A DNA stretch of 48,197 nt, from the IMG/VR virus record IMGVR_UViG_3300045240_000024, positions 1 to 48,197 of that record, one strand, 5' to 3'. Shown piece by piece: positions 543 to 48,197 of the stretch; within the stretch, counting starts at the first letter, position 1; the number at the start of each line of letters is the position of its first letter. A program made the position numbers and the translations under genes. The notes beneath the pieces were generated by a model. The model did not search any database. It saw only the letters and a program-made list of their open reading frames with translations, and was not told the origin of the DNA. Origin of the DNA: a virus.

Positions 543-2531
<1,989 letters not shown>

Positions 2532-2552
2532 TTGCTTCTCTCCAAAGGGGTT

Positions 2553-2575
2553 CGGGCGCGCCACAGGCGCGCCCG
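2553..2575 (-). other. Intergenic hairpin between AAA+ and VWA genes
   Basis: A perfect 10-bp inverted repeat (CGGGCGCGCC / GGCGCGCCCG) has a 3-nt ACA loop. It lies in the 51-bp gap between the two leftward genes, just upstream of the VWA ribosome binding site. It could tune the relative expression of the two subunits or protect the mRNA 3' end. Confidence 0.6.
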
Positions 2576-2582
2576 GCGTTCG

Positions 2583-4253
2583 TCACAGAGTGTCGTTGTC
2601 GTCCGGGAATTGCAGCGCCGTTGCGCCAACGCTCCCTTGCGCGTGAGGGTCAATCTTGGGCGCGTCCGGGTCCAGCGTCCCGCGCACAATCGCGTCGATG
2701 TCCAGATGCGCGCTCGCCAGCGAGGTTGTCGCCAAGCTTTCCAGAACGGCGCGATCTTCCGGCGCAGCCGCCGCGATGATGATCGCATGGAACGCTTTCG
2801 CGCTCGGCACGCCAACGCGCACCGTGCGCGCCCACGCCAACAATCGCCGGGGCGTGACGCCCATTGTCAGCTTACCGCTATCAGCTTGCGCCCGCGTGAG
2901 GTTGGCGTAGTCAACCATTGGCTTGGCAATCGCCGCGTGAACGCTCGCCCGGTGCGCCAGCATCGAAGTCTCTTGCGCCGCCGTGAGATACGAAAATTCG
3001 GTTCGCATCGCGAAACGATCCAAAAACGCCGCGTTGACAGGAGCCGTGTCCACATAGCGCCCGGTGTCGTCACCTGTCCCGTTGGTGTTGTCAGCCGCGA
3101 TCACAAAAACGCCGGGCGCAGCGTCAACAACTTCTCCGCTCGCGAGCCACAAACGCCGCTTGTCGAGCGCTGTCTGTAGCACCGCGAGCGTGCCGCTTCG
3201 AAGCAACGTGGGCTCGTCAATCAAGATCACGCAATGCGCGATCCGAAAGGCGCGCGTGAGCTTGCCATCCTCCCAAACCATGCCACCCGATTTTGAAGGC
3301 ACCATTTGCCCGATTAGCTCGGCGGGCTCGGTCGTTCGTTCAATCGCGATGCGAACGAAGGGGCGCACGAGCCTAGCGGCGTATTGCTCGCAACCATCGG
3401 TTTTCCCAATGCCAGCGGGGCCGAAAATCCAAGCGTTTAAGCCGCAATCGTCTTGCGCCGCGATTTGCGCCAGCGTCTCAGGGTTCCACACATAGTCGGG
3501 ATCGACGGCGGGCGCGCCCGCGTAGTCGCACACATTCACGAGCAAGGTTTCGAGAACATGCTTCAGCGCTGCGCCGCCTTCGCCCTTGCGAAGCCCAAAG
3601 GCTTGGTACAAGGGCACGCGCTTCCGAATGGCGACGTTCGGCGGCGCGCTCGCGACCGTGGCTTCGCCCGGCGCGCCCGGTGCGCCGCCTTGAATGGTCA
3701 CGGTCTTGACGATTGTGCGCGGGCCTCGTGTTGCGGCTTCAGCAAGGGGCCGAATGAGCCCCGGCATCATGCTCGCAAGGTGAGGCGTCATATGCGGGCT
3801 CGCGGCCGCGAGCGCTTCAGCAATCACAGTCTCGACATCGCCGCCTTCGAAGCCTTCGCCCATGTCTTTGTCCTCCTCATCAGGGTCCATCGGAAAAGAG
3901 ATCGCGGCGGCGCTCGGCTCGCCCGGCGCGATATGCGCCAGCGCCTCGACGTTCGCGGGCTCATCGCCAGCGTCCGCGTCAACCATGTCCATCGCCGCCT
4001 CCAAAGCTTTCTGTCCAGCGCCGGGCGGGATTGCAGCCACGAGCCCGGTGACAAAGTCGCTCTTGGCGCGCACAAGATCGAAGCCCAAAGCCTCGCACGC
4101 CGCGATGATCTCAGCCCGCGTCAAAGCTTGCGTCCGGTTTTTCCAGCCTTGAGCAACGACATAGTCGCGCCAGCCGCTCGACGCTTTTAACCTTGGCTTA
4201 ACGTAATTCCGAAACTCGCGCCCCAGTTGCAGATGATCATATTTGCCTGACAT
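2583..4253 (-). CDS. CobS/MoxR-like AAA+ ATPase
   Basis: A 556-residue protein with a dynein-related AAA+ core in its C-terminal half. Walker A is GPAGIGKT (about residues 277-284) and Walker B is VILIDEP (about 341). After them come the NTNGTGDDTGRY segment and the FLDRFAM (arginine finger) motif typical of CobS ATPases. The N-terminal 200 residues are variable and acidic. CobS-type ATPases work with VWA partners such as CobT to remodel metal-chelatase or other complexes; the partner gene follows directly downstream. CobS-like genes are known in many tailed phages. The start is uncertain: ATG at 4253 (MSGKYD) is used here, while GTG at 4262 adds three residues and sits closer to a GAGG. The first gene of the leftward operon, it has no CAGACAC motif. 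Confidence 0.85.
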   Translation of the reverse strand: MSGKYDHLQLGREFRNYVKPRLKASSGWRDYVVAQGWKNRTQALTRAEIIAACEALGFDLVRAKSDFVTGLVAAIPPGAGQKALEAAMDMVDADAGDEPANVEALAHIAPGEPSAAAISFPMDPDEEDKDMGEGFEGGDVETVIAEALAAASPHMTPHLASMMPGLIRPLAEAATRGPRTIVKTVTIQGGAPGAPGEATVASAPPNVAIRKRVPLYQAFGLRKGEGGAALKHVLETLLVNVCDYAGAPAVDPDYVWNPETLAQIAAQDDCGLNAWIFGPAGIGKTDGCEQYAARLVRPFVRIAIERTTEPAELIGQMVPSKSGGMVWEDGKLTRAFRIAHCVILIDEPTLLRSGTLAVLQTALDKRRLWLASGEVVDAAPGVFVIAADNTNGTGDDTGRYVDTAPVNAAFLDRFAMRTEFSYLTAAQETSMLAHRASVHAAIAKPMVDYANLTRAQADSGKLTMGVTPRRLLAWARTVRVGVPSAKAFHAIIIAAAAPEDRAVLESLATTSLASAHLDIDAIVRGTLDPDAPKIDPHAQGSVGATALQFPDDNDTL

Positions 4254-4262
4254 ATCAATCAC

Positions 4263-38838: not shown

Positions 38839-39158
38839 TTCGCGGCTCCCTGAAGCTCCAATTGCAGCTTGGTGAGGGCGATGATCCGTTGCAGATCTTC
38901 CCACGGCTGGAGATCGGGAATGGGCATCGGTTTTGGGGGCTCGGTCAGCTTCGGGACAGGAGGCGGCGCGCCAACCTCCAAACGGACCACGCGGGCTGCT
39001 GGGACGTATCTTCGGGCGGCGTGTCTGTGAATGACCGGCGCGCGAACCCCCCAGCCACAAGCTGCCTGTGGCCGCGGAAAGCGCCAATACCGAAAACAGT
39101 GCGCTTCGGCGCTCGACGCGACCAGAGTGAGGACGATGGCGAGTGAAGCCCGGGTCAT
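38835..39158 (-). CDS. Small exported protein
   Basis: A 107-residue protein with a Sec signal peptide (MTRASLAIVLTLVASSAEA, cleavage after AEA), then a basic Arg/Pro/Cys region (CFRYWRFPRPQAACGWG) and a Pro-rich tail. It is embedded in the replication operon, with 4-bp and 1-bp overlaps to its neighbours, which is odd for an exported protein. Perhaps it changes the host envelope or blocks superinfection; that is inferred only. The start and the signal peptide agree well. Confidence 0.6.
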   Translation of the reverse strand: MTRASLAIVLTLVASSAEAHCFRYWRFPRPQAACGWGVRAPVIHRHAARRYVPAARVVRLEVGAPPPVPKLTEPPKPMPIPDLQPWEDLQRIIALTKLQLELQGAAK

Positions 39159-41146
39159 CAGAGTTTGCCGTACCGGTCAACGATGCTGCCGTTGCACGAA
39201 AGAGGAAGCCCCACGCCCCACGCCGGAGGCGTGTTCATCTTGCGGCGCATCACGTCGAACAGAGCAGTCGTGTCCCACTCTTCGGTCATCGCCACGATCT
39301 CGTCGTGGACTGTGGTCAGGAGCGCCTTCGGGTAGACGCTCTCGATGCCGACAATGGCCTCGGCCAAGAGATCGCGGGCGACGGCTTGGGTGGCGTTCTC
39401 GACCAGCTTGCCGCCGTAGGTGTCCATCTCGCACCAGCGCCGGGTGTACTGGTTGACGCCCCAGAATATGATCCGGTCGTTCTCGATCCGGGCGTTCCGA
39501 TAGACGAGGTTTCGTCCGCTCGGGAGTTCCATCAGGAGAGCGCCCGCGAGCGCCTTGTCGGGGCGCGCCATGCGGAACTTCAAGCGATTGAAAGGGAAAA
39601 CGTGGCTGGGATCGAAGATCGCGCTCTTGGCGGTTGCTTCGACGCCATACCAGAGCTTGACGATGGGCATGTTGGCGCGCCGGAAGTCCGTCACATGGCC
39701 CGTAGCTTCGTTAAGGGTCAGGGTCAGATTGTACTTCGCGGCGCTTTCTTGAAACTTGGCCCCGCCCATGCCGTAGCCGCACGCGAGGCGCAGGACTTTA
39801 CCCAACATCCGGCTGGTCGAGCCGACGCCCGCGGCGGTGAACGTGTAGATGTCTTCGCCCCGGCGAAACACGTCGAGCATCTCGTCGAAGTCGGCGAGCC
39901 ACGCGAGGACCACGGCTTCGATGGCGTGGTAGTCGGCAATGACGAACTTGAACCCCGCCGGAGGCGCGAAGACACCGCGCAGACACGAAGACACCACGTC
40001 GAGCGGATTGCCGAAAAGAACCCTCAACGAGTTCGCGTCGAGCCCAGCTTTGATCGCGTCAATCGCTTCGGGGACATACTTGACCACGGGGCGGGGGAAA
40101 TTCTGGATCTGCGGGCCGCGGCCAGCCCAGCGAAGCGTCCTGACCGCGCCGCCGTACTGGACAAGCCCCCGGACGACGCCGTCAACGAGCGCGTAATTCG
40201 CGATGGCGTTCAGTTTCGCCGTCGAAGTCTTGGCGGCTTCGGCCCGGAGCTTCAAGACGGTTTGCGCCGCCGGGTTCATCTGGGCGAATTGGATCGTATG
40301 GGTAAAAGCGTCGAGCGTCTCGCGCTCCAGCGTATCATGCGGGTAACCCCGGTTCTTGACCCACTGCAAGAGCGCGCTCACTTGCGTCGTGCTGGTGATC
40401 GCGCCCGCCGTCCACTTGCTGATCAACCAATTGAGATCAAGCAATTCCTGAAGCGTGATCGCTTGCAGCGCGACGAGCAATTCCCGGTCCACCGGGAGCC
40501 CGCGCTGGTTCATGGCTTGATCGACGAGCCAGATCTGGCGCTCGCGAGGCGTCATGCGCGGCGTGCGCCGATGAACTTCGCGCTCGGCTCGAACGTCGTC
40601 GAGGTTGTAGGCGATCAGCGTCGCGAGCTTGGCGGGATCTTCGCGATGCCACCAGTGAACGACGCCGTAAGCTTCGACGCTCCGGGGCTTCGACATTCGC
40701 AGCATCACGCGATGCCCGGCGATGTCTTTCAGGTGAGGCGAGCCCACGGCTTTGCCCGCGTCGTTGAGCGACATCGGGAGCCCGGCGCATGCGGCTGCGG
40801 CCATCGTGCAGTGGAACCTGTCGATGGGCAGCGGGGGAAAATTGAAACGGGGAACACAGATGTTGTTCCAGACTGCGAATTCGAAAGCCGCGTTCCAAGC
40901 ATGGATCTCTGCGCCATTGGCGACAGCGTGCAGGAGGGAATTCCGATTGACCACCGCCGTCGCTGAACCGATAGACGGCGGGGCGTCGAGAAGATCGAAT
41001 ACGATCACCAGCGGCTCGTCGTGATCGAGCGCGAAGCCCGCCACAATGGGCAAAGTCGTCGGCGCTTTCGTCCACACGTCAGCGCCCACGTCCTTGAGAT
41101 TGAGGACACCGCACAGTTCGAAGTCGAGCGAGATGACTTTGGTCAT
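39158..41146 (-). CDS. Family A DNA polymerase with 3'-5' exonuclease
   Basis: A 662-residue protein. The exonuclease has SLDFELCG (Asp8, Glu10), AWNAAFEFAVWN and a YNLDDV third motif. The polymerase has motif A DYHAIEAVV (about 403), motif B GKVLRLACGYGMGG (about 447) and motif C VHDEIVAM (about 613). It copies phage DNA with proofreading. Motif A reads DYHAIE where most polymerases have DYSQIE; the Glu is kept. ATG at 41146 is used, with its stop-overlap to the GcrA-like gene; an upstream ORF extension to 41299 is rejected. This polymerase is found with DUF2815/DUF2800 in other phages, as here. Confidence 0.9.
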   Translation of the reverse strand: MTKVISLDFELCGVLNLKDVGADVWTKAPTTLPIVAGFALDHDEPLVIVFDLLDAPPSIGSATAVVNRNSLLHAVANGAEIHAWNAAFEFAVWNNICVPRFNFPPLPIDRFHCTMAAAACAGLPMSLNDAGKAVGSPHLKDIAGHRVMLRMSKPRSVEAYGVVHWWHREDPAKLATLIAYNLDDVRAEREVHRRTPRMTPRERQIWLVDQAMNQRGLPVDRELLVALQAITLQELLDLNWLISKWTAGAITSTTQVSALLQWVKNRGYPHDTLERETLDAFTHTIQFAQMNPAAQTVLKLRAEAAKTSTAKLNAIANYALVDGVVRGLVQYGGAVRTLRWAGRGPQIQNFPRPVVKYVPEAIDAIKAGLDANSLRVLFGNPLDVVSSCLRGVFAPPAGFKFVIADYHAIEAVVLAWLADFDEMLDVFRRGEDIYTFTAAGVGSTSRMLGKVLRLACGYGMGGAKFQESAAKYNLTLTLNEATGHVTDFRRANMPIVKLWYGVEATAKSAIFDPSHVFPFNRLKFRMARPDKALAGALLMELPSGRNLVYRNARIENDRIIFWGVNQYTRRWCEMDTYGGKLVENATQAVARDLLAEAIVGIESVYPKALLTTVHDEIVAMTEEWDTTALFDVMRRKMNTPPAWGVGLPLSCNGSIVDRYGKL

Positions 41147-41649
41147 CGCGGTTGCCCGGCAAAGGCGACAAGCCGACCGGCATAGCGAATGTTGGACGTG
41201 CAGAGCGACGTATGCTCTTGGCAGTAGGACGAACCCGGGCGCTTGGGCTTCGCGCAAAACCGTTGCTCGCCTTCGCGCTCGCCAGTGGGGTAACGGCAAG
41301 CGTTCTCTCGAAGTTCGTAGATCCGGGGATAGAGCAACAGCGCCGGATTGAGCTTCGGCTTCGGCGCAGACACGGGCCGAGGCTTCAGCCGCGCGGGCTT
41401 GGAGCGCGGCTTCTCGGCTTTCAGCTTCGGCTCTTTCGGCGTACGAGGCCCACGCTGGGGCGCGAACACGCGCGCGGGAAATCGCTCGTCACCCCGGAGC
41501 CGCGCGAGGCGCGCGAGCCGACAGGCAGAGCCGTGCGGGATCTTGAGCTTGCGGGCGATCTCGGTGGTCGTGACGTTCTTGGCCCACAACGCCGCGATCT
41601 TGTCGAGCATGTCTGCGCCATAGATCGTGTTCGATGGCCGGTTGCTCAC
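41143..41649 (-). CDS. GcrA-like transcription regulator
   Basis: A 168-residue protein. The N-terminus (MLDKIAALWAKNVTTTEIARKLKI, then ACRLARLARL) matches the GcrA DNA-binding domain, and the C-terminus (CRYPTGEREGEQRFCAKPKRPGSSYCQEH) matches the Cys/His motif of GcrA. A basic Lys/Pro linker joins them. GcrA acts with sigma70 at promoters carrying GANTC methylated by CcrM in alphaproteobacteria. A phage copy could redirect host RNA polymerase to phage or host genes. GTG at 41649 is chosen because GGAGG lies 9 nt upstream; a GTG at 41658 is possible. The few GANTC sites in the window make the target question interesting. Confidence 0.78.
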   Translation of the reverse strand: MSNRPSNTIYGADMLDKIAALWAKNVTTTEIARKLKIPHGSACRLARLARLRGDERFPARVFAPQRGPRTPKEPKLKAEKPRSKPARLKPRPVSAPKPKLNPALLLYPRIYELRENACRYPTGEREGEQRFCAKPKRPGSSYCQEHTSLCTSNIRYAGRLVAFAGQPR

Positions 41650-41654
41650 TTTTC

Positions 41655-42047
41655 TCACCCTCCGCTTCCTTGCGTATGCCCTGCGGCGGCGAGGGCGCGT
41701 GCTTGGCGGATGCTCTCAGCACAATGATCGCAGCCGCGCGACACGGCTAAATTGAGCGCCTCTCGCAGCCGCTCATTCTCGGCGCGGAGGGCGGCGAGTT
41801 TTTCCGAATACGGGAATAGCTCCAAAGCAGCCTTCTCTAGCTCTGCCACGCGGGTTTCCAGCCGTTCAATGACGGCTCCACGACGATCCACGAACGAAGT
41901 CGCTTTTAGGTTCTTGGCCCAGCGAACCAGTTGCGCGGCGGATTTTTCCCCGCGCTGTTCGAGGCCCATAGCGAGGCCCTCCAATTTCGCCAGTTCTTGG
42001 TCGAGCGCATGCCGGAACTTATCGGCGTCAACCTCGGACTTGTTCAT
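41655..42047 (-). CDS. Coiled-coil protein
   Basis: A 130-residue protein, mostly helical with heptad repeats (ERLETRVAELEKAALELFPYSEKLAALRAENERLREAL), and a C-terminal CDHC. It lies between the GcrA-like and DUF6378-like genes, with short overlaps. No catalytic motif; it might form a dimeric or trimeric adaptor. I do not recognise the family. Confidence 0.6.
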   Translation of the reverse strand: MNKSEVDADKFRHALDQELAKLEGLAMGLEQRGEKSAAQLVRWAKNLKATSFVDRRGAVIERLETRVAELEKAALELFPYSEKLAALRAENERLREALNLAVSRGCDHCAESIRQARALAAAGHTQGSGG

Positions 42048-42520
42048 CGCGCTAATCTCGTTTCGACCAAGCGGGGATAGCCCTGAAGATCACGCCAGTG
42101 ATCGGGATAGCTCGGATCGCCCGACAAGATCCGCGCGATCTTGGTCTGCATCTGTTCGAGCGCCTCGCGCATGAACGACGGCATGTCGTCCCAGTTTTTG
42201 CCTTGGCGCATGACGTATTTGAGCGCTTGCGCGGTCTGGGCATCGTCGGTGAAATCACCGTGAACGGTTTGGCGTTGCTCCAAGATCGCCAGAACCGTGT
42301 CCATCTCGTCAGCAGGAATTTGGACGGCTTCGCCGGGCTCGGCGCGCAACACGTCTTCGACGGCGCGCATCGCATCGACGCTCGGGTGTCTGGGTGCTTC
42401 GTTCATTGGAACATCCTTGGTTTCAAGTTTGTGGTGCATGTACTCTTCGGCGCGGCGCATCGCTTCGCGAAGCTTGATGGCTTCTTGATCGGCGGGGCCA
42501 AAGTCGAATTGATCGCTCAT
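42044..42520 (-). CDS. DUF6378-like protein
   Basis: A 158-residue protein. The C-terminal half has the DUF6378-like run VLAILEQRQTVHGDF, then LKYVMRQGKNWDDMPSFMREALEQM and a final KIARILSGDPSYPDHWRDLQGYPRLVE. The family is common in phage replication blocks, and its fold resembles MazG-like nucleotide pyrophosphohydrolases, although clear metal ligands are not evident. The N-terminal 60 residues are variable. The start has a normal overlap with the 32-residue gene. Confidence 0.65.
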   Translation of the reverse strand: MSDQFDFGPADQEAIKLREAMRRAEEYMHHKLETKDVPMNEAPRHPSVDAMRAVEDVLRAEPGEAVQIPADEMDTVLAILEQRQTVHGDFTDDAQTAQALKYVMRQGKNWDDMPSFMREALEQMQTKIARILSGDPSYPDHWRDLQGYPRLVETRLAR

Positions 42521-42615
42521 TGCCAGTAGCCGCTCAGGTTCGCGGCATAGGCAAAGATCGAGAACAGGACGATCACCGCAGTGAGCGCAAGAACACTGAA
42601 ATCTCTAAGGGTCAT
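42517..42615 (-). CDS. 32-residue single-span membrane protein
   Basis: A tiny gene with an excellent GGAGG ribosome binding site 8 nt before its ATG. It encodes MTLRDFSVLALTAVIVLF and on to a Tyr-Trp-Gln end: one transmembrane helix (about residues 6-24) with a short N-terminus. Its stop overlaps the start of the DUF6378-like gene. The strong ribosome binding site and the large hairpin just upstream argue that it is expressed. Function unknown. Confidence 0.6.
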   Translation of the reverse strand: MTLRDFSVLALTAVIVLFSIFAYAANLSGYWQ

Positions 42616-42634
42616 GGGAGTTTCCTCCGGTAGC

Positions 42635-42686
42635 GGCGCGAACGAGGGATCACCGGGGGGACGGAAACGCATCCCCCGCTCGCGCC
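42635..42686 (-). promoter_or_regulatory. RNA-like hairpin that pairs better on the minus strand
   Basis: Two 16-nt arms (42635-42650 and 42671-42686) pair perfectly in the leftward transcript if two G-U wobbles are allowed; on the plus strand the same positions are A-C mismatches. The loop is 20 nt. The hairpin ends a few bases before the GGAGG of the 32-residue gene, so it could control its translation or stabilise the mRNA. No U-tract. Confidence 0.65.
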
Positions 42687-42718
42687 TGATCTGAGCTTAA
42701 CCAGCGACGGTTTGGGGC

Positions 42719-43612
42719 TCAGACCATCTCGTCTTCGTTCTCGGCGTCGTCGGGGAACTGTTCCGCCGCGGGCTTGCGCCCGTCGAGACGCGGCCCCGGG
42801 CGCAGGAACTGCACGCTCTCAAGGAAGAACGAGCAGCCCTTTTTACCCGCCTTGTCGTAAGCAAAGGGGCGCACGTTCGCCCGGATCACCCAACCGGCGT
42901 AGAACTCGGACCAATCAATGATGTCTTCCTTGCGCGAGTTGATGCAGCCCGGCGCGATCTTGCTCCACGGCGAAATGTAGATCTCGCCCGGCTTGTAGCC
43001 GTCGTACTGGGCCGCTTTGTCGCCGCAGTCGTGGAACGGCGAGATCAGCCCGACCGGGAGCTTCGCGGGCCACTTCTCCTTGAGCGCGGCGTCCACGCCC
43101 ACCTGAAGGTTGCGGAACTCGGCGGTCGCTTGCGCGGCCTTGTCGAAGATGATGTTGACCGAGTATTTCGGCTCGGCCCCTTCGCTGATCGCCTTCGGCT
43201 TCTGCAACTGAAGAAAACTGGCGATGCCGCGGGGAGTGAGGATTTTCTGCACAGTCATAGCGTGTTCCTTTGGGTCCAATTCAACCAATTCATCCGTTAG
43301 GTCTTTGAGCGTCGTCCACACGAACGGACTGTCGCGGGCTCGCTTGGGCGAGAGGATTTCGAAAATATGATCCGTGGCTTCGATCCTGTCGAACTTGTTT
43401 TGAATTCGATCCAGTAACACACCAAGGTTGAAGCGGTTCGGATCATGCCGAAAACTGCGGATTGCGGCGTTGAACTCTTCCTCGTGCCTCACTCTGTCCC
43501 GGTATTCTTCGAGGCCCTTTTCCACCGCTGCGAACATGCCCGGGTTGTGCGGCTTTGGCTCGTACGGCAGCGTCTCCAGATGCTCGACGGGTAAAAAGCT
43601 CCATTTCGCCAT
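42719..43612 (-). CDS. DUF2815 protein with 118-residue N-terminal extension
   Basis: A 297-residue protein. Residues 119-297 (from MTVQKILTPRG) are the DUF2815 family, phage single-stranded DNA-binding-like proteins usually of about 180 residues, with the motif ISPWSKIAPGC and a Glu/Asp-rich acidic tail. The first 118 residues (MAKWSFLPVEHLETLP...) are an extra helical domain without stop or frameshift. An internal ATG at 43258 has AAAGGA 7 nt upstream, so a separate short form may be made. The ATG at 43612 is used in a TGATG overlap with the DUF2800 gene. Co-occurrence with DUF2800 and a family A polymerase supports a replication/recombination role. Confidence 0.78.
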   Translation of the reverse strand: MAKWSFLPVEHLETLPYEPKPHNPGMFAAVEKGLEEYRDRVRHEEEFNAAIRSFRHDPNRFNLGVLLDRIQNKFDRIEATDHIFEILSPKRARDSPFVWTTLKDLTDELVELDPKEHAMTVQKILTPRGIASFLQLQKPKAISEGAEPKYSVNIIFDKAAQATAEFRNLQVGVDAALKEKWPAKLPVGLISPFHDCGDKAAQYDGYKPGEIYISPWSKIAPGCINSRKEDIIDWSEFYAGWVIRANVRPFAYDKAGKKGCSFFLESVQFLRPGPRLDGRKPAAEQFPDDAENEDEMV

Positions 43613-44415
43613 CACACCGGCTCCATCTCGTCGAGCGTCAAGTCGTCGGGGAAACTGTCAGCGTGCCGGAGCGAACGATAGCTCCGATAGGCTTCGCAAT
43701 CCATGCTCGCGGCGCAGAAAAAACAGTGTGAACCGGGCGTCAACGGAAGAGGGTGGTTCGACAGGATCGCTTCGACTGCGGGCTTGAAGACGCCGTACGC
43801 CCAATAGAGAAGCTCGCCCACGCTGATCGTCCAGACACGGATCGCGTCGCCTCCGGCGCGAGGCTGTACGATCATCAGAACGACCGTTTCGAGCGTCTTC
43901 GCCAACTCGGGCTGCTCGGCCAGAAGCTTGCCCAGCAAGCCCACGGCGTAGCAAAGCAACTGCGTGTTTTCGACCACGTTCACCGCTTTGCCCGCACCGT
44001 ATTTGAGATCGCAGACATAGAGCGTGAACCCGTCGCACGCGCCGAAATCGACGGTGCCAAAGACTTCTTCAGCGGGGCGCGTCGCCCACAGCCAAGTGAG
44101 CGCGACTTCGGTTTCGATCACCCGCCACAGGCACGCTTCGGAGAGCGAGTTCGCCATCGACGTGAACAGCTTCACCGCGTCGAGCATCTCGTCGGTGACG
44201 GGCACTTGCGAGCCATCGACATCGAAGCTCATGCCCGCCTTCCACGGAATCGCGTTGATGGTGAGCGCGCCTTCGCACAGAGCGTGAGCGAGCGTTCCCT
44301 CGTGCGCGGCAAAGCCCACTTGCTTCCGGGGCCGCTTGGCCCACTCGGCAGGCGCGCCAAGGCAAGCGAGCCAGATGTCGCTTGACGATGGGCCAAGGCG
44401 CGCATGCCGGGTCAT
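43612..44415 (-). CDS. DUF2800 nuclease (RecB/Cas4-like)
   Basis: A 267-residue protein. It has the start HARLGPSSSDIWLACLGAPAEW, a first acidic motif VDFGACDGF, VCDLKYGAGK as the D-x-K core, and a later NTQLLCYAVGLL (Q-x3-Y), the PD-(D/E)xK nuclease set. A final CFFCAASMDCEAY could bind a metal or Fe-S cluster as in Cas4-like enzymes. DUF2800 proteins are 5'-3' exonuclease-like recombination factors in phages with DUF2815. The ATG at 44415 is one base after the previous stop; the upstream extension to 44445 is rejected. Confidence 0.82.
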   Translation of the reverse strand: MTRHARLGPSSSDIWLACLGAPAEWAKRPRKQVGFAAHEGTLAHALCEGALTINAIPWKAGMSFDVDGSQVPVTDEMLDAVKLFTSMANSLSEACLWRVIETEVALTWLWATRPAEEVFGTVDFGACDGFTLYVCDLKYGAGKAVNVVENTQLLCYAVGLLGKLLAEQPELAKTLETVVLMIVQPRAGGDAIRVWTISVGELLYWAYGVFKPAVEAILSNHPLPLTPGSHCFFCAASMDCEAYRSYRSLRHADSFPDDLTLDEMEPV

Positions 44416-44416
44416 C

Positions 44417-44884
44417 TCAGAGCTTGGCCTCGTTGACCAAGCCAAAGAGCGCCGCGCGATGCTCTTCCTTGGCGTGCATGATGAACTCGAGCCCGGTCTT
44501 GGCTTTGAACGCCGGAAGCAGATCGAGGATCAGGCGCGAGCCTTCTTTGTTCTGGGCGGCGCGCACCGCCTTGGTGATCGTCGCCTTGAGGGCTTCGAGC
44601 GTCGGCAACTCGGCGGCGGCGGGTTCGGGCTCGGGCTCAGGCTCGGGCTCGGGCTCGGTCGCTGGGGGTTCAGTCGCCTTGATCATTTCGGCTGGCGTCG
44701 GAAGCGCCTTGCCGCGGCCCTTTTTGTTTTTGGGCGCGGGCAGACCTTCTTGATCAGGGCCAATCGCCGGGAGTTCGACCGCGTCAGCCGTAGAGGGCCG
44801 GGCCAGTTGGTCGAGCCCCAGCGCATCATACATCAAGTTCTTAACGTGATACCAGCTTGAGGCTTCGAACGTCACGGAAATCAT
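44417..44884 (-). CDS. Protein with poly-Glu-Pro linker
   Basis: A 155-residue protein with an N-terminal segment (MISVTFEASSWYHVKNLMYD), a middle linker of about six Glu-Pro pairs (near residues 76-88) and a helical C-terminus (LKATITKAVRAAQNKEGSRLILDLLPAFKAKTG). It lies between the SNF2-type helicase and the DUF2800 nuclease. The linker is coded by the same GGGCTC hexamer as the one in the VWA protein. The function is unknown; the C-terminus looks like a small domain common in phage replication blocks. AGAGGA precedes the ATG. Confidence 0.6.
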   Translation of the reverse strand: MISVTFEASSWYHVKNLMYDALGLDQLARPSTADAVELPAIGPDQEGLPAPKNKKGRGKALPTPAEMIKATEPPATEPEPEPEPEPEPAAAELPTLEALKATITKAVRAAQNKEGSRLILDLLPAFKAKTGLEFIMHAKEEHRAALFGLVNEAKL

Positions 44885-44915
44885 CGTTGGGTGTCCTCTC
44901 TTGTTGCGCTATGTA

Positions 44916-46346
44916 TTACACTGTGTCGGGGAAGTCAACCCCCACAGCCGGGGTTTTCACAGGAGCTACGCCAGCGTCCACGATCTTGGCGATGTCGCGG
45001 GTCTTGCGCGCGACGATGCTCATAAGCCGGGCGTCGAGCGTCCCGGGCAATAGAACGAACCTCGCCAGAACCGGGTGGATTTGCCCCTTTCGATGGGCGC
45101 GGGCAATCGCTTGGAGGTTCTTGGCCGGGACGGGCGACGGCTCGGCTATGACCACGTTGTGCGAAGCGTGAAGCGTGATGACTTCGCCCGCGGCCTCGAT
45201 GGCGAGGATGATCAAGCGCAGTCGCGTGTCTGTCTGGAAAAGCTGGATCGAGTTTTCACGCACACTTTGGGAAGTCGACCCCGTGATCACTAGTGGCGAA
45301 TACTTCTTGAGCGCCTCGGCTAAGTCTCTAATCACTTCACGGTGGTGCGCGAACACGATGACTTTGTCGTCCTCGGCGTCGTCGAGCATGTCGCTGACCA
45401 TGTCTGCGACGGGTTTGACTTTGGCTCGCCCGATCAATCGCCGGATCGTCGAGAACCCGACGGAGTTCGCTTGGACCGCGTTCAAGAGAGCGTCGTCGTC
45501 GAGGGCTTCGAGATCTTGGTCGCCCAGCGCGGCCGCGATCTCAGCTTTGAGAACGGGTTCGATCTCGGTGTCTGCGGGCAGCGGGTGATCGACGATCCTG
45601 AGCGGGGGCATGTCAGTGAGAACGTCCTTGAGACGCTTGCGATCTGTGAAACCTTTGATCCTCGCGGCAAGCTCGTGCGCGTTCCGGCCCCCCAAGATAC
45701 GAACGCCATAGGGTGTCTGGACAGCGACACAAAACCGATCCGTGAAGACGCCCTCAGGCATCACCGGCTGGAGCCCAAGCTGGGAGAGCATGATTGTCTG
45801 CGGCGCGAGCGCGTGAAGGTGGGTCCAGAACTCCGCGGGGTGGTTCAGAAGGGGCGTCCCGGTCAGGCACCAGATGTGATCCACGAACTCCAAGGGCGAG
45901 CCCTTCAAGTCGATCTTGGGGCCGTAGATCGCCCGGGTGCGCTGGGCGCTGGAATTCTTGAGGTAGTGGGCTTCGTCGATGATCACAGCGTCCCAATCCG
46001 AGGAAGAGATCGCGGCCTTGAAGATCGCGGTGTCTGGGCGGCAGCGCGAGTAGGGCACGATCCTGACGCCTCGCCCTTCGAAGAACGCATAGGGCCGCGC
46101 CGCATAGGCCGTGTCCATCACCTTGACCGGGTAGTGCGACCAATCCTCGAAGTGCTTGCGCCAGACGGCGCTTCCAATCGGGGGACAAAACACCAAAACG
46201 CGACGGGCGCTGGCCTTGAGACACGCGCGAACCGCGGTGGGGGTCTTGCCGACGCCCGGGTCCCACACCAGCATTGCGCGGTTTGTCTGCGAGAGCAGGG
46301 TCGCGCCGACTTCCTGAAAGGGCATCAGCTTGAGATCGGGGTTCAT
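44916..46346 (-). CDS. SNF2-type helicase/ATPase
   Basis: A 476-residue protein with the superfamily 2 set: Walker A DPGVGKT (about 30), DEAH (about 122), LTGTP (about 160) and a motif VI-like QAIARAHRKGQ (about 409-419). SNF2-type phage helicases move on double-stranded DNA and act in replication or recombination; many occur next to DUF2800/DUF2815. It lies between the small 84-residue protein and the Glu-Pro protein. The ATG overlaps the stop of the previous gene by 4 bp. Confidence 0.88.
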   Translation of the reverse strand: MNPDLKLMPFQEVGATLLSQTNRAMLVWDPGVGKTPTAVRACLKASARRVLVFCPPIGSAVWRKHFEDWSHYPVKVMDTAYAARPYAFFEGRGVRIVPYSRCRPDTAIFKAAISSSDWDAVIIDEAHYLKNSSAQRTRAIYGPKIDLKGSPLEFVDHIWCLTGTPLLNHPAEFWTHLHALAPQTIMLSQLGLQPVMPEGVFTDRFCVAVQTPYGVRILGGRNAHELAARIKGFTDRKRLKDVLTDMPPLRIVDHPLPADTEIEPVLKAEIAAALGDQDLEALDDDALLNAVQANSVGFSTIRRLIGRAKVKPVADMVSDMLDDAEDDKVIVFAHHREVIRDLAEALKKYSPLVITGSTSQSVRENSIQLFQTDTRLRLIILAIEAAGEVITLHASHNVVIAEPSPVPAKNLQAIARAHRKGQIHPVLARFVLLPGTLDARLMSIVARKTRDIAKIVDAGVAPVKTPAVGVDFPDTV

Positions 46347-47350: not shown

Positions 47351-47727
47351 GGGTTTCACCACCGATTGGCACGATTGAATGTGGAAGCCTTGATTTCGTT
47401 TGGCTTTTTGGCTCTCAGTTTACGTTAGAAGACAACTGGGAGGCAACGATTAAGTGGGATCGCCTAGAAATCAGAAAGGATGCCGCCCGAATTTCGGGAA
47501 AGCATCCTCGACACCCGGGGTAGCATGCGGGGGATCTCGGGTCAAGAATTATTTTCGGCTCGACTTCCTCGGGGCGAATTCCAATTCGCAAGGAAATCCC
47601 GCCTGCGGCCCGGGGCCACTCGGCCCTATAAGGCGTTTTTGAAAAGTACGGGAAATTTCTACTAAAAATCTGGGTCGAATTCGTCTATAAGGCGCTGACC
47701 CCAGCCTCGTGCCCGCGGCGCGCGCGC
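47351..47727. other. Non-coding region with two TATAAGGCG repeats
   Basis: No convincing gene: two overlapping 61-62 codon frames lack family features. The notable parts are two TATAAGGCG copies (about 47627 and 47684, 57 bp apart), a GCGAATT/AATTCGC inverted repeat (about 47573-47588) and a second CGAATTCG palindrome just before the second copy. These resemble paired operators or promoter -10 elements. Confidence 0.5.
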
Positions 47728-47972
47728 GTGCCTGCGCCTGCGTGCGTGCCTGCGCCCGCGTGCGTGCCTGCGCCCGCGTGCGTGTCTGCGCCCGTGCGTG
47801 TCTGCGCCCGTGCGTGCCTGCGCCCGCGTGCGTGCCTGCGCCCGCGTGCGTGCCTGCGCCCGCGTGCGTGCCTGCGCCCGCGCGTGCCTGCGCCCGCGTG
47901 CGTGCCTGCGCCCGCGTGCGTGCCTGCGCCCGCGTGCGTGCCTGCGCCCGCGTGCGTACGTGCCTGCGCGCC
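47728..47972. repeat. Tandem array of an 18/14-bp CGTGCCTGCGCC unit
   Basis: About fourteen units of cgtgcctgcgcccg with a variable TG-rich spacer, giving 18-bp and 14-bp periods. Two units read GTGTCTG in place of GTGCCTG, so the array is related to the genome-wide heptamer. It is strongly alternating purine-pyrimidine. It lies directly next to the end array. Confidence 0.9.
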
Positions 47973-47982
47973 CGCGAGCGCC

Positions 47983-48197
47983 CCGGGCGGCGAGCGCCCC
48001 GGGCGGCGAGCGCCCCGGGCGGCGAGCGCCCCGGGCGGCGAGCGCCCCGGGCGGCGAGCGCCCCGGGCGTCGAGCGCCCCGGGGCCGTCGAGCGCCCCGG
48101 GCCGTCGAGCGCCCCGGGCGGCGAGCGCCCCGGGCCGTCGAGCGCCCCGGGGCCGTCGAGCGCCCCGGGCCGTCGAGCGCCCCGGGCGGCGAGCGCC
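47983..48197. repeat. GC-rich 16/17-bp tandem array, right end
   Basis: Thirteen units of the same type as the left-end array: five 16-mers (B), one variant (ccgggcgtcgagcgcc), then A, B and an 18-bp variant (ccggggccgtcgagcgcc) mixed. The final unit ends exactly at the last base of the window. Joined with positions 1-232 it makes one continuous array of 27 units. Confidence 0.95.

Follow-up and report, generated by a model that had tools for sequence, protein, structure and literature searches.

The window, by which we mean the entire 48,197 bases of the IMG/VR virus record analyzed here, carries a minus-strand replication operon in the order SNF2 helicase, DUF2800 exonuclease, ssDNA-binding protein, o158, o130, a gcrA-like gene and family A DNA polymerase (PolA), with a DNA primase further downstream (Table 1). 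The gcrA-like ORF matched PF07750 (GcrA) over the whole protein with 45 bits (E=1.9e-11; gathering cut-off 26.9) and was recovered again in a genome-level search (6.1e-13), bearing out the phage GcrA-like regulator that a sequence-only reading of this DNA had placed here. The GTG at 41649, the start given in that reading, is a better fit than the GTG at 41658, which also lies in the open gcrA frame, since a GGAGG Shine-Dalgarno-like stretch (41659-41663) is well spaced from the former (9 nt) and touches the latter. At its other end, the gcrA stop codon overlaps the PolA start in an ATGA junction.

Table 1 Features of the replication operon, the GcrA-like protein and the GANTC motif in the window
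Feature	Position	Strand	Basis and remarks
gcrA-like gene, 168 aa	41143..41649	-	GTG start 41649; PF07750; GGAGG upstream; ATGA overlap with PolA gene
Helix-turn-helix region at the N-terminus, divergent from the DNA-binding domain of GcrA	41494..41610	-	No PF07750 match alone; HTH_23 E 0.02; 7.6 bits against phage GcrA profile
Recognition-helix stretch, IPHGSACRLARLARL replacing VTRNAVIGKVHRLGL	41497..41541	-	Alignments A1 and A3
Stretch within C-terminal domain, with Cys/His signature	41212..41298	-	PF07750 36 bits alone; alignment of 26 sequences
Family A DNA polymerase (PolA)	39158..41146	-	PF00476, phrog_17; downstream of gcrA, overlapping gcrA stop
o130, protein of no assigned function	41655..42047	-	Upstream of gcrA; missing together with gcrA from relative G006
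Remaining replication operon: o158, ssDNA-binding protein, DUF2800 exonuclease, SNF2 helicase	42044..46346	-	Annotation scans
Sole GANTC site of the window (GAATC)	44247..44251	.	Motif count

The window ORFs that were scanned include no RNA polymerase or sigma factor, and the phage therefore probably relies on host RNA polymerase. PF01555 (CcrM-type), the only methylase family searched, was absent from the window and present in one of 50 records (G037). K-mers common to the intergenic regions of the window yielded no convincing promoter motif, and the count of promoter-like sites did not exceed chance. Elsewhere in the window, positions 543-4262 encode an AAA+ ATPase and a VWA-domain protein that together resemble cobaltochelatase CobS/CobT; most relatives have the pair too. 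GC-rich tandem arrays with units of 16-18 bp occupy positions 1-234, 47708-47957 and 47974-48197; the arrays at both ends have a common unit on the same strand and may thus represent terminal repeats or an assembly effect.

In host GcrA, methylated DNA is read by the N-terminal domain and sigma2 is bound by the C-terminal domain (reviewed in PMC7403470). The two halves of the window protein were found to differ sharply in conservation. The C-terminal 68 residues retained their PF07750 match when scanned alone, and three Cys were invariant and a His nearly invariant across the aligned sequences, whereas the N-terminal 72 residues did not match GcrA, and their helix-turn-helix matches were weak and generic. 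When a profile built from 25 other phage GcrAs was used, the N-terminus of the window protein scored 7.6 bits, compared with 87.6 for Caulobacter GcrA and 42.4 for phiCbK, while its C-terminal domain scored 39.4 bits. The corresponding values for the GcrA-like protein of Rhizobium phage RHph_X2_24 were 15.0 bits (N-terminus) and 37.3 bits (C-terminus). In the alignments, VTRNAVIGKVHRLGL of host GcrA is occupied by IPHGSACRLARLARL in the window protein, and both alignments and profile scans indicate that the [TS]RN-A-V-I-G-K recognition signature is absent from its N-terminal domain; the basic Pro/Arg/Lys-rich linker is retained. DNA-contact residues were judged from conservation rather than from a GcrA structure. 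As for the DNA-binding helix, the loss of which the sequence-only reading had held to count against its own proposal, the canonical recognition residues are gone and a weak generic match is kept (PF13384 HTH_23, E 0.02). The missing helix was not attributed to a frameshift, because the other listed minus-strand ORFs over this stretch contain no RNAV/IGK-like string. As judged by homology, the putative sigma-interacting C-terminal domain is retained and the methyl-GANTC recognition signature is lost, and because that signature is missing we file the protein as a GcrA-family relative and not as a canonical methyl-GANTC-reading GcrA.

A tblastn search of the phage collection with the window protein returned no match, and phmmer against PDB gave chance hits only. 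A consensus C-terminal-domain query for related loci returned one locus. ORFs comprising the GcrA C-terminal domain only were seen in contig L007 (71 aa, 30.4 bits) and, at a sub-threshold 19.9 bits, in Rhizobium phage RHph_N65. Searches for related loci with PolA found nothing, and those with RHph_X2_24 GcrA confirmed no relative.

Relatives found through TerL included RHph_N65 and Microcystis phage Mae-Yong1326-1, IMG/VR contigs with up to 83% identity, and, in genome assemblies, contigs from a Rhizobiales bacterium (57%) and from a Devosia MAG (52%). These TerL relatives make a Rhizobiales-like alphaproteobacterium the probable host. Mae-Yong1326-1, recorded as a cyanobacterial phage, has a TerL with roughly 50% identity to that of the window and nearly lacks GANTC (see below); an alphaproteobacterium present in the culture may be what it actually infects. 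The Devosia contig G050:C23 contains an apparent prophage at about 15-68 kb (L241-L244) with related TerL and PolA. This prophage has its own gcrA with an SRNAVIG reader, less than 1 kb from its polA, and holds 0-4 GANTC in each 5 kb, whereas most flanking segments of that size have 7-8.

GANTC occurs once in the window. Dinucleotide shuffles predicted 244.5 +/- 14.7 sites, a maximal-order Markov model about 97, and a synonymous-codon shuffle within genes approximately 70-72 (70.2 +/- 6.6; also calculated as 71.6), and among the palindromes tested GANTC showed the most significant depletion. The claim that this genome is stripped of GANTC was thus upheld under every null. Alphaproteobacterial host DNA is itself GANTC-poor, at about 0.28-0.43 of Markov-1 expectation, so that a fair host-like expectation for the window is roughly 70-100 sites; with host DNA at about 0.3-0.4 of Markov expectation, the phage lies roughly 70-100 fold under the host level.

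The depletion extends well beyond GANTC. In the window, observed over expected counts were 3/93 for CCWGG, 2/51 for GGCGCC, 0/46 for CGATCG, 3/51 for GCCGGC and 0/22 for GACGTC, and 23 of 43 testable 6-bp palindromes fell below 0.2 of expectation, versus 1-2 in each of two host sets. Under the codon-shuffle null over genes, CCAGG was observed once against 101.8 expected and GGCGCC once against 40. Motif loss therefore exceeds composition and protein constraint and acts at the DNA level. Asymmetric motifs are also nearly gone from the window (GACCTC 0/31, CAGCTC 0/23, GAGACC 0/18). The set of stripped motifs differs between relatives, with loss of CCWGG common to G028 and G024 and not seen in G036 or G006, and host DNA does not have the multi-motif loss, GANTC itself standing at the reduced host level given above. 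One relative (contig G014, loci L122 and L123) has been stripped of a different motif, with GATC at 1/157 expected and GANTC in the normal range (99/147), and L025 and L007 are also nearly without GATC. Well-known Type II enzymes recognize GANTC, CCWGG and several of the depleted hexamers. Restriction-site avoidance, a phenomenon described in phages (PMC4687349), would be expected to leave just this pattern: the loss of many restriction-type motifs, in a set specific to each phage and not in host DNA. Escape from restriction enzymes would best explain the loss of GANTC.

Among large relatives (44-50 kb) lacking gcrA, GANTC was near zero in five (observed/expected 0/211 in G017, 0/164 in G028, 2/218 in G036, 1/174 in G024 and 1/153 in Mae-Yong1326-1), and four others keep more (50/238 in G006, 33/198 in G010, 35/229 in G037 and 59/256 in G018). 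A PF07750 search of the 50 records gave two above cut-off, both fetched by the GcrA search and none by the TerL search. A tblastn match in G018 (316-438) was rejected as gcrA: the motif is not visible in the frame inspected, and G018 is not among the PF07750 matches. The closest near-complete relative, G006 (TerL 80%, PolA 63%), lacks gcrA and o130, and its o158 directly adjoins PolA, so these two genes were either inserted in the window or lost from G006. Eighty IMG/VR contigs fetched with Caulobacter GcrA, a set biased to canonical sequences by the search patterns and mostly bearing the canonical reader, had a host-like median GANTC observed/expected ratio of 0.28, with none below 0.06. A diverged reader and GANTC loss were found together in the window (0.004) and RHph_X2_24 (0.03). 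L007, with its C-terminal-domain-only ORF, shows no loss (0.51 over the contig) and breaks the pattern, so any association is based on very few cases. A link between GcrA and GANTC is not supported, given the relatives that have almost no GANTC and no gcrA and the many other stripped palindromes; the near-absence of GANTC is a trait separate from the gcrA-like gene.

The sequence-only reading had combined acquisition of GcrA and loss of GANTC into one strategy for rewiring host transcription. Both features do occur in the window, and RHph_X2_24 offers a second pairing, but the gcrA-less relatives, the host-like GcrA-bearing contigs and the loss of many unrelated motifs render this combination very improbable. 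What stands of that reading is its suggestion of a GcrA relative working without the methyl mark, which is plausible given the missing signature and the apparently conserved sigma-interacting domain; what falls is the tie to GANTC. The protein might, on the other hand, perform ordinary GcrA function at host promoters with methylated GANTC and drive the host into S phase, a role suggested for the phiCbK homologue (PMC3556154). It belongs to the same Pfam family, and such a function needs no GANTC in the phage genome; yet the signature shared by host GcrA and most phage GcrAs is absent from it and its N-terminus scores far below that of phiCbK, and we regard this as improbable. Alternatively, the protein could be a sigma70 decoy: bound through its C-terminal domain, it would compete with host GcrA and depress cell-cycle transcription in the host, and its N-terminal half would be a relic. 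The diverged N-terminus beside a retained C-terminal domain and the C-terminal-domain-only ORFs would fit, but the latter are few and putative, the N-terminus is still helix-turn-helix-like and the basic linker is retained, leaving the decoy unlikely.

A further proposal concerns the loss of GANTC only, as avoidance of CcrM methylation or of capture by host GcrA and not of restriction. GANTC is the motif most often lost in the clade, regardless of other motifs, as would be expected for a near-universal alphaproteobacterial mark if CcrM or GcrA were avoided, and PMC9516812 describes pelagiphages as GANTC-poor though SAR11 has no reported restriction system. Many motifs untouched by CcrM are lost just as completely in the same genomes, however, and we hold this proposal to be possible but short of likely; it is compatible with the other models, and the confidences do not sum to one.

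We favor, at a probability of about 0.55, a sigma70 cofactor encoded in the replication operon that docks through its C-terminal domain, has lost the reader signature and contacts DNA independently of methylation, with GANTC loss a separate outcome of restriction pressure. The protein would be made together with the replication proteins, as the gene order and the overlapping junctions inside the operon suggest, and by homology its C-terminal domain would dock on host sigma70-RNA polymerase. The N-terminal reader would have been re-specified or have degenerated; a reader lacking the methyl-GANTC signature implies that the protein most likely works without methyl-GANTC, steering or modulating host RNA polymerase through a different, methylation-independent contact. 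GANTC would be one of many Type II-like sites removed by restriction pressure in alphaproteobacterial hosts. Against the favored reading, the N-terminus could read methyl-GANTC through other residues; a methylation-independent GcrA-like factor is nonetheless plausible from its sequence. More tentatively, some alphaproteobacterial phages may have turned the sigma70-binding domain of GcrA into a general phage sigma70 cofactor, with the methyl-GANTC reader replaced or dropped and the factor freed from CcrM, and the window protein, RHph_X2_24 and the C-terminal-domain-only ORFs may be steps on that path. If sigma70 is still bound and methyl-GANTC no longer read, the two functions of GcrA would stand separated in nature, and the window protein would show how a phage can use an epigenetic cofactor of its host although the phage genome lacks the mark. 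The mosaic palindrome loss across relatives could record the restriction systems carried by their hosts.

GcrA homologues have been published for phiCbK-like phages, with a cell-cycle role proposed (PMC3556154), and annotated in cyanophage Pam5 (PMC9382816), phiLM21-like prophages (PMC12429752) and a phage linked to Rhizobiales (PMC11309003). In a literature search that was not exhaustive, the loss of the reader signature with the sigma-interacting domain retained and the breadth of palindrome loss seem to be new. Like Caulobacter crescentus GcrA (PF07750; PDB 7ye1, 5yiu, 5yix), the window protein has an N-terminal HTH, a basic linker and a C-terminal, presumptively sigma-interacting domain with a Cys/His signature; unlike it, the window protein has IPHGSACRL for [TS]RNAVIGK, an N-terminal half that alone lacks a GcrA match, and a place in a phage operon. 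The phiCbK homologue gp222 (PMC3556154) is likewise phage-encoded and its gene adjoins a DNA polymerase fragment, but its N-terminus is recognizable (TKSAVCGK) and the depletion of GANTC is milder (18/118 over the 20 kb examined). RHph_X2_24 (QWY83191.1) resembles the window in its conserved C-terminal domain, diverged N-terminal HTH and GANTC-poor region (2/67), and differs in phage group, gene neighborhood and a partial SRSAISG signature. Clade-dependent near-loss of GANTC in alphaproteobacterial phages is described for pelagiphages in PMC9516812, in passages that do not discuss GcrA; the window also loses CCWGG and many 6-bp palindromes. Compared with restriction-site avoidance in other phages, in which short palindromes are likewise selectively lost (PMC4687349), the window is unusually broad, combining GANTC and CCWGG with more than half of the testable 6-bp palindromes.
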